A stretch of 64,000 nucleotides of DNA from Thermoplasmata archaeon (GTDB lineage: Archaea > Thermoplasmatota > Thermoplasmata > Thermoplasmatales > Thermoplasmataceae): positions 1-64,000 of the forward strand of contig JAJZZE010000024.1 in assembly GCA_021797735.1 (NCBI GenBank). Direction: 5' to 3'. The translations under genes and the position numbers were made by a program. Positions 20,987 through 31,557 of this stretch are shown here, one piece after another (positions within the stretch are counted from its first letter, which is position 1; each line of letters begins with the position of its first letter). Under the pieces are notes generated by a model that saw nothing but the letters and a program-made list of their open reading frames with translations, was not told where the DNA came from and made no database searches.

Positions 20987-21120
20987 ACTATGGCAGAAAT
21001 AAACCACCAGGAATTGTAAAAAGGAAAGGCACAGTGTAAAAACAGCTATTATAAGCCTGTTGACAGGAAGATAGTATAATACTTGCCGGTAACATAAATA
21101 ATACACCATATTGGAATGAA
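20987..21120 (+). mobile_element. Truncated, internally deleted copy of the 30.4-kb miniature element
   Basis: The left end (ACTATGGCAGAAATAAAC) matches the terminal repeat of the element at 30373-30660 with few changes, and the internal segment AACAGCTATTATAAGCCTG with the following ~60 bases is nearly identical to 30521-30600. About 110 bases between these blocks are missing relative to the complete copy, and the right terminal repeat is absent. It ends a few bases before the stop codon of the convergent GT-C gene. Confidence 0.7.
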
Positions 21121-21124
21121 AATG

Positions 21125-30338: not shown

Positions 30339-30372
30339 TTTTTAATTTACCCTTAAAATTTGTAATAAAACT

Positions 30373-30660
30373 ACTATGGCGGAAATAAGCCGCCAGGAAT
30401 TTCGTATAATTTTTCTTTCTGACTCTGTGATCTACTACCTGAGAGTGGGATTTATGTGTATCCCATACATATAGGATACGTGACATTGGTTGTAAAAAAG
30501 GTAAATACGCGGGGCAAAAACAGCTATTATAAGCCTGTTGACAGGAGGATAGTATAATACTTGCCGATAACATAAAAAATACACTATATCCGGATGAAAG
30601 CATAAAAAATATAATGAACTATATAAAAGTAAATGAATAATCACTTATCTCCGCCATAGT
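30373..30660 (+). mobile_element. Complete miniature inverted-repeat element (288 bp)
   Basis: The ends are 17-bp terminal inverted repeats: ACTATGGCGGAAATAAG at 30373-30389 and its complement CTTATCTCCGCCATAGT at 30644-30660, one mismatch. The element is flanked by a direct repeat AAAACT (30367-30372 and 30661-30666), a probable target-site duplication. No open frame of useful length is inside, so it must depend on a transposase elsewhere. A decayed copy is at 20987-21120. Its right end stands about 10 bp upstream of the TATA box of the next gene. Confidence 0.85.
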
Positions 30661-30699
30661 AAAACTAAAAAATTATTTATAAGGAAAACATACACTGAC

Positions 30700-31557
30700 A
30701 TGAAATATAAAGTCTCAGATATAATGACAAAGAATCCTGTGAAATATACTGTTCCCAGTTCTATTGCAGAGGTTATAAAAGTTCTAATAAAAAATAATGT
30801 AACCGGTATACCTATAGTAGATAACCAGAATAAATATCAGGGTGTAATAACAAGAAGGGATATATTTTATAATCCAGATGAGACACAGACAGCTTTAGTA
30901 ATGAGAAAGGCAAAACCAATAAATGAGGGTGATAGTGTAGAAACTGCGGCGAATGAACTGGTAAAACAGGGTAAAAGACATTTAATAGTAACTAATGACA
31001 GTAATGAGGTTACGGGCATATTAACCCCTCAAAACTTTCTTAATATAATCAGTGAAGAATATAGAAGTTTAAAGGTAAAGGATATAATTGAGTATAATTC
31101 CGTATGCGTATGGAAAGATACACCGTTATCTGTAGCACTGGTAATGATGAAATTATCACAGGTTTTCTCATTTCCAGTTCTTGATGATGACGGTAAATTT
31201 ACAGGACTGATAACAGATAGAGATATATTCAATAAGGTAAAGATGTCACATACATCGGTTTTATCAGAAGCTGGTATTGCGGATGATGAGGATCCATGGT
31301 CCTGGGAGGGCATAAGAAATGTTTTTACATACATAATAGAGAAGTCAAACATAAAAGTTCCAGATATAAGGGTAAAAGAACTGATGGTGCCAGACCCGAA
31401 GGTTATATACCTTGAATCAACAATAGAAGATGCAGTAAAATTAATGTCCCAGAAAAATTATAATCAGCTACCCATTCTATCAGGCCATGGGGAAATTTAT
31501 GGTATGATCTATGATATAGAAATATTAAAAGTATTTAATGATAAACATGTACAGTGA
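30700..31557 (+). CDS. Four-CBS-domain protein
   Basis: A 285-residue soluble protein made of four CBS repeats in two Bateman modules: KVSDIMTKNPVKYTV ... GVITRRDIF (1-55), a second repeat ending GILTPQNFL (~65-110), a third starting KDIIEYNSVCVW and ending GLITDRDIF (~125-175), and a fourth starting KELMVPDPKVIY and ending IYDIEIL (~225-283). Such proteins sense adenine nucleotides or SAM and regulate partners; the partner is unknown. Its last 20 bases overlap the glycyl-tRNA synthetase gene. The TATA box (TTATTTATAA, about 30672-30681) is right next to the MITE's right end. Confidence 0.88.
   Translation: MKYKVSDIMTKNPVKYTVPSSIAEVIKVLIKNNVTGIPIVDNQNKYQGVITRRDIFYNPDETQTALVMRKAKPINEGDSVETAANELVKQGKRHLIVTNDSNEVTGILTPQNFLNIISEEYRSLKVKDIIEYNSVCVWKDTPLSVALVMMKLSQVFSFPVLDDDGKFTGLITDRDIFNKVKMSHTSVLSEAGIADDEDPWSWEGIRNVFTYIIEKSNIKVPDIRVKELMVPDPKVIYLESTIEDAVKLMSQKNYNQLPILSGHGEIYGMIYDIEILKVFNDKHVQ

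Follow-up and report, generated by a model that had tools for sequence, protein, structure and literature searches.

An archaeal MITE, very probably an internal-deletion derivative of a two-gene Mutator/IS256-superfamily insertion sequence of Thermoplasmatales

The window analysed here, a stretch of 64,000 nucleotides of contig JAJZZE010000024.1, carries a 286-bp MITE that is very probably an internal-deletion derivative of a two-gene insertion sequence (IS) of the Mutator/IS256 superfamily in Thermoplasmatales, mobilised in trans. This origin is based on observations of its copies, their ends, 8-bp duplications and empty sites, on the fact that each half is homologous to the parent and on the anatomy of that parent. 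The element has the characters of a MITE in being short and multicopy, in lacking an intact transposase, and in having terminal inverted repeats and a target-site duplication with a matching empty site.

Table 1 Features of the MITE, of its surroundings in the window and of parent elements in other genomes
Feature	Position	Strand	Basis or remark
MITE, 286 bp	30374..30659	+	Strand follows the parent transposase genes; copy alignment and G007 empty site
Left terminal inverted repeat, CTATGGCGGAAATAAG, 16 bp	30374..30389	+
Right terminal inverted repeat, CTATGGCGGAGATAAG	30644..30659	-	One mismatch to left repeat
Left copy of 8-bp target-site duplication, TAAAACTA	30366..30373	.	Single copy in G007
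Right copy of 8-bp target-site duplication, TAAAACTA	30660..30667	.
TATA-like element, putative ancestral OrfA promoter	30447..30456	+	Position equals GGTTTA-type box in IS leaders
22-bp palindrome, GTATCCCATACATATAGGATAC, possible operator	30458..30479	.	Between TATA box and start of OrfA remnant
OrfA remnant, about 25 codons, ending in TAA	30480..30557	+	tblastn, OrfA protein alignment, DNA alignment with G007 C31 copy
GTTGAC, probable deletion hinge	30537..30542	+	Common to OrfA and OrfB C-terminus
OrfB C-terminus remnant with stop	30560..30640	+	Consensus LAGNINNTLY...; DNA alignment with 3' end of own-genome full-length relative
Pre-existing TATA-like box of CBS-domain gene, TTATTTATAA	30673..30682	+	ATG at 30700
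Decayed, internally deleted older copy without right terminal inverted repeat	20987..21121	+	Orthologous copy in G007 (L071)
Parent element in G021, 2,113 bp			Target-site duplication CTTCTGTA
Parent element in G011			Target-site duplication TCACCGTA; OrfB broken
Parent element in G003			Target-site duplication CTAAAATG

In an alignment of ten MITE copies the homology runs from CTATGG to CCATAG, which sets the length at 286 bp rather than the 288 bp of the first-pass annotation. Inverted repeats had rightly been recognised at both ends, but they are 16 bp long (15 of 16 positions matched) and not 17 bp, the outer A/T beyond them belonging to the flank by the same comparison. The target duplication, previously read as the six bases AAAACT, is the 8-bp TAAAACTA; the shorter figure arose because the final A of the left repeat and the initial T of the right one had been counted as part of the element, and other copies also have duplications matching at 8 of 8 bases. 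At up to three mismatches, ACTATGGCGGAAATAAG is found three times in the window against 0.23 times expected from shuffles, namely at both termini of this element and, at 20987, at the left terminus of the decayed copy.

The view that this is a MITE has held up: the element has multiple copies, terminal inverted repeats and target duplications, and three of its sites are empty in the sister species G007. The element's own genome (G000) contains nine two-ended copies, ten altogether with the decayed one, and G007 contains about ten; among the ten genomes of the genus it is present in these two only, G004 having one weak 40-bp match. The copies are pairwise 78-98% alike. Perfect 8-bp duplications flank five of the nine two-ended own-genome copies (CATTTTGC, TCTAAAAG, ACTAAGCC and GTTAATAA in addition to that in the window, each matching at 8 of 8 bases) and one copy in G007. 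The other four of the nine (C11, C28, C43 and C22:93149) have no clear duplication, with 2-5 of 8 bases matching; their flanks have G007 counterparts at separate places or for one side only, which fits rearrangement at these copies.

A related strain had been expected to show an empty site with one duplication unit, and G007, the closest relative, whose CBS-domain protein is 98% identical to that of the window, reads ...TTTTAATAAAACTAAAAAATTATTTATAAG... at the orthologous site, with a single TAAAACTA. The site is also empty in G004, the next relative. Joined flanks, when searched, revealed two further empty sites in G007, for the copies at C48:96124 and C3:39716, exactly one 8-bp unit being missing in each. 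Sequence comparison therefore places the window insertion after the split from G007, the closest sequenced relative, and its absence from both G007 and G004 marks it as recent. The combination that would have spoken against a mobile element, namely no additional copies and an identical arrangement in distant species, was looked for and is not what the genomes show. The decayed copy, which stands at the same site in G007 and must therefore have entered before the species split, had been seen in the first pass as a deleted copy at 20987-21120; it extends one base further and lacks the right terminal inverted repeat.

Two G007 copies, at C6 (L223) and C35 (L224), have insertions of ~100-190 bp that lie in the 22-bp palindrome or next to it, and one of these insertions holds a ~47-aa transposase-like tail without a Pfam name; a possible IS110-type C-terminus in the C6 insertion finds no support in Pfam. 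A ~230-bp stretch at C48:89354 of the own genome (L049) is bounded by CCATGGCGGAGATAGG and CCACCATAG and may represent a separate MITE family whose tips are similar.

The parent IS, as seen in other genomes (Table 1), consists of OrfA and, overlapping it, OrfB (about 560 aa) between CTATGG ends, with an 8-bp target duplication. Its Thermoplasmatales representatives (F. acidarmanus Fer1, NC_021592.1; E-plasma, KI542675.1) are about 2.1 kb long and carry both genes; the MITE shares their CTATGG-type ends, 8-bp duplication, OrfA leader with its promoter and OrfB C-terminus but lacks nearly all of the coding sequence, and the inner bases of the terminal repeats vary between subgroups. The element in G009 agrees with the F. 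acidarmanus Fer1 element both in its identity and in where it stands, which puts the genus as Ferroplasma. Ends that match those of the MITE occur in two elements, neither of which has a full intact gene set: in G058 the ends CTATGGCGGAAATAAACCGTTA are nearly identical and the genes broken, and in G007 C13 the terminal repeat and ~70-bp leader of the MITE lead into an intact OrfA and then the beginning of OrfB. Within the own genome, contig C56 stops in the left end of an element of the parent type and C3 in its right end (L218/L220), with the matching duplication AATTAATT, and contigs C55 and C48 (L219/L221) likewise carry both ends, with the matching duplication GCATTAGC. Two copies of a full-length relative of the parent have broken this assembly, the duplications pairing C56 with C3 and C55 with C48; they are identical over their visible ends, and their inner parts are absent from the assembly. 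Their terminal repeats equal those of the MITE over CTATGGCG only and then differ. The present-day mobiliser is not seen, since the own-genome and G007 assemblies contain no intact OrfB. OrfB is 100% identical among F. acidarmanus Fer1, G003 and the Ferroplasmaceae MAG UBA567 (L203, L154, L155), a sign in the sequences of what would be recent IS movement in Ferroplasma.

Both halves of the MITE can be traced to this parent. The first-pass description of the element as non-coding is right as to intact genes, of which it has none, but overlooks broken remnants of OrfA and OrfB that remain recognisable. One reading frame of the consensus reads MGYVTLIVKKVNMRGKNSYYKPVDRKMV and another ends LAGNINNTLYRDENMKNIMNYIKVNE. 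The MGYVTLIVKKVNMRGKNSYYKPVDRKMV frame matches the N-terminus of OrfA (~103 aa), and for five of six OrfAs only 0 to 13 of 1000 shuffles aligned as well (278 of 1000 for the sixth). The match to OrfB is weak at the protein level, and the assignment is made because the DNA aligns with the end of contig C3, the right end of an own-genome full-length element. In the G007 C31 copy, the MITE-like left half runs on into OrfA and the junction is absent. GTTGA is present at the junction of the MITE and at both parental positions, within LVDEKR of OrfA and VDMGKR of the own-genome OrfB, and deletion across this short repeat is therefore the likely origin of the MITE, the exact hinge being our reading of the alignment.

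The transposase family, left unnamed in the first-pass annotation, can now be assigned to a two-gene IS of the Mutator/IS256 superfamily. OrfB has an N-terminal CPxC and the conserved motifs QIDGT, DMR, CLMHF and TNNG[MI]E, with D138, D193, C214xxH217 and E448 (G021 numbering) conserved. Over the catalytic part, the best member scores 24.2 bits against Pfam MULE (cut-off 27.6; 5e-5) and 21.7 bits against Transposase_mut (cut-off 21; 1e-4), and the NCBIfam IS256 model gives 38.3, 32.3 and 29.9 bits, below its cut-off of 150. Fold comparison was needed because phmmer against PDB sequences returned chance matches only and a profile search placed ISCth4 at E 0.044 amid unrelated chance matches. 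In both comparisons the predicted fold (pLDDT 84, pTM 0.70) comes closest to 6xg8, the ISCth4 transposase (Foldseek E 1e-7; Z 14.1 over 311 residues, rmsd 6.4), but the fold alone gives no verdict on the family, because Hermes and retroviral integrases, which share the RNase H core, follow close behind.

The parent can be compared with IS256 and ISCth4, the latter known for 8-bp A/T-rich duplications and a C/DxxH motif (PMC7780238). The parent shares with them, besides the best fold match, an RNase H-like DDE core with helical insertion and CxxH, and a duplication of about 8 bp (CTTCTGTA, TCACCGTA, CTAAAATG, AATTAATT, GCATTAGC). It differs in its scores far below the IS256 cut-off, in the separate OrfA before the transposase and in the CPxC-type N-terminus. 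The subterminal TGTAAA motif of IS256 terminal repeats (PMC7780238) is another point of difference, inspection by eye of the outer ~30 bases of the MITE consensus and of the G021 and own-genome elements having shown none. On motifs and the predicted model, OrfB is a DDE transposase and the parent a distant member of the Mutator/IS256 superfamily, not an IS256 element by the curated cut-off. Such transposases have been seen before, since the F. acidiphilum annotation already mentions mutator and MULE transposases (PMC5473848). OrfA corresponds to no family in Pfam or NCBIfam, and its predicted model, with a pLDDT of 65, is too uncertain for a fold search.

We propose the following route to the MITE. 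Internal deletion of a two-gene IS of ~2.1 kb would have removed about 1.8 kb, from a GTTGA early in OrfA to the matching GTTGA near the end of OrfB, and would have retained the left repeat, the promoter, the first ~25 codons of OrfA, the last ~25 of OrfB and the right repeat. The parent transposase would then have moved the MITE in trans, duplicating 8 bp at each insertion. OrfB is the presumed mobilising enzyme, and a copy-out/paste-in route is suggested by analogy to ISCth4.

The retained leader may matter to the neighbouring gene. The MITE consensus reads GTATCCCATACATATGGGATAC between the TATA-like box and the start of OrfA, and sixteen related OrfA leaders (L094-L109) often have palindromes in the same region, of different sequence. 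These palindromes reach p < 0.05 against shuffles in 9 of 17 sequences and three sequences show nothing; Fisher's combined p of 2e-8 is overstated, some of the elements being related. The pattern suggests an operator that could diverge along with its binding protein. As first noted, the right end lies beside the TATA box of the CBS-domain gene, TTATTTATAA, which lies 14 bp beyond the MITE. This box stands at the same distance in nine genomes of the genus, empty sites included, so it was not brought by the MITE, and the core promoter, having kept its own box, is undisturbed. An effect of the MITE on this promoter is speculative; a second, read-through promoter for the CBS gene is possible.

Whether the MITE has been co-opted as such a second, regulated promoter, with the OrfA promoter and the 22-bp palindrome facing the gene, seems unlikely to us. 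The CBS gene and the parent genes run in the same orientation, the TATA-like box and palindrome have been kept, and cases of promoters inside prokaryotic MITEs driving neighbouring genes are known (PMC10969869), all of which speaks for it. However, the CBS gene still has its own TATA box, conserved and intact, the insertion is recent, being absent from G007 and G004, and the other copies take no constant orientation to neighbouring ORFs.

A different ancestry, from or by the action of another DDE family of Ferroplasma (IS4, IS5, ISH3 or IS481) with the CTATGG tip shared by chance, could draw on the many IS4, ISH3, IS5 and IS481 copies in Ferroplasma genomes (PMC12350378) and on the missing intact OrfB in the own assembly. 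We consider it very unlikely, given that both halves of the MITE align to the OrfA/OrfB parents, that its terminal repeat and ~70-bp leader match the OrfA element of G007 C13, and that the 8-bp duplication is found in parent and MITE alike. Exceedingly improbable is a repeat that works as an RNA element, a processed hairpin, instead of mobile DNA: the MITE as a whole does fold slightly better than its shuffled versions (z -2.15; 2 of 200 did as well), its terminal repeats being paired, but such pairing is expected of any MITE, and a functional RNA was rejected in view of the target duplications and empty sites, which show transposition, and of a search of Rfam that gave no match.

The element resembles the Sulfolobus MITEs SM1-SM4 and other archaeal MITEs, which are likewise short and multicopy, without a transposase of their own and, as proposed here for the window element, moved in trans (PMC10969869). 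The Sulfolobus elements belong to another host order, and their copy numbers (25-44 reported for SM2-SM3; PMC10969869) compare with about 10 here.

Archaeal MITEs are little studied, and our literature searches found no paper joining 'Ferroplasma' and 'MITE' and none on Thermoplasma MITEs. The element is ordinary as a MITE; the evidence is unusually complete and the parent group can be named. Within a single genus the whole chain is documented, from the parent group through its deletion derivative to the empty sites and an older copy that two species share, and a draft genome of Ferroplasma turns out to hide full-length relatives of the parent at its contig ends. The promoter and palindrome constitute a testable regulatory module common to parent and MITE. 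We also entertain a broader scheme, which we hold to be rather improbable, in which the parent would be an undescribed two-gene branch of Mutator/IS256, OrfA or OrfB would repress the OrfA promoter via a subgroup-specific palindrome between its TATA box and the start codon, and MITEs, by keeping this promoter and its operator, would carry to new sites a complete promoter under transposon control, here facing the CBS gene.
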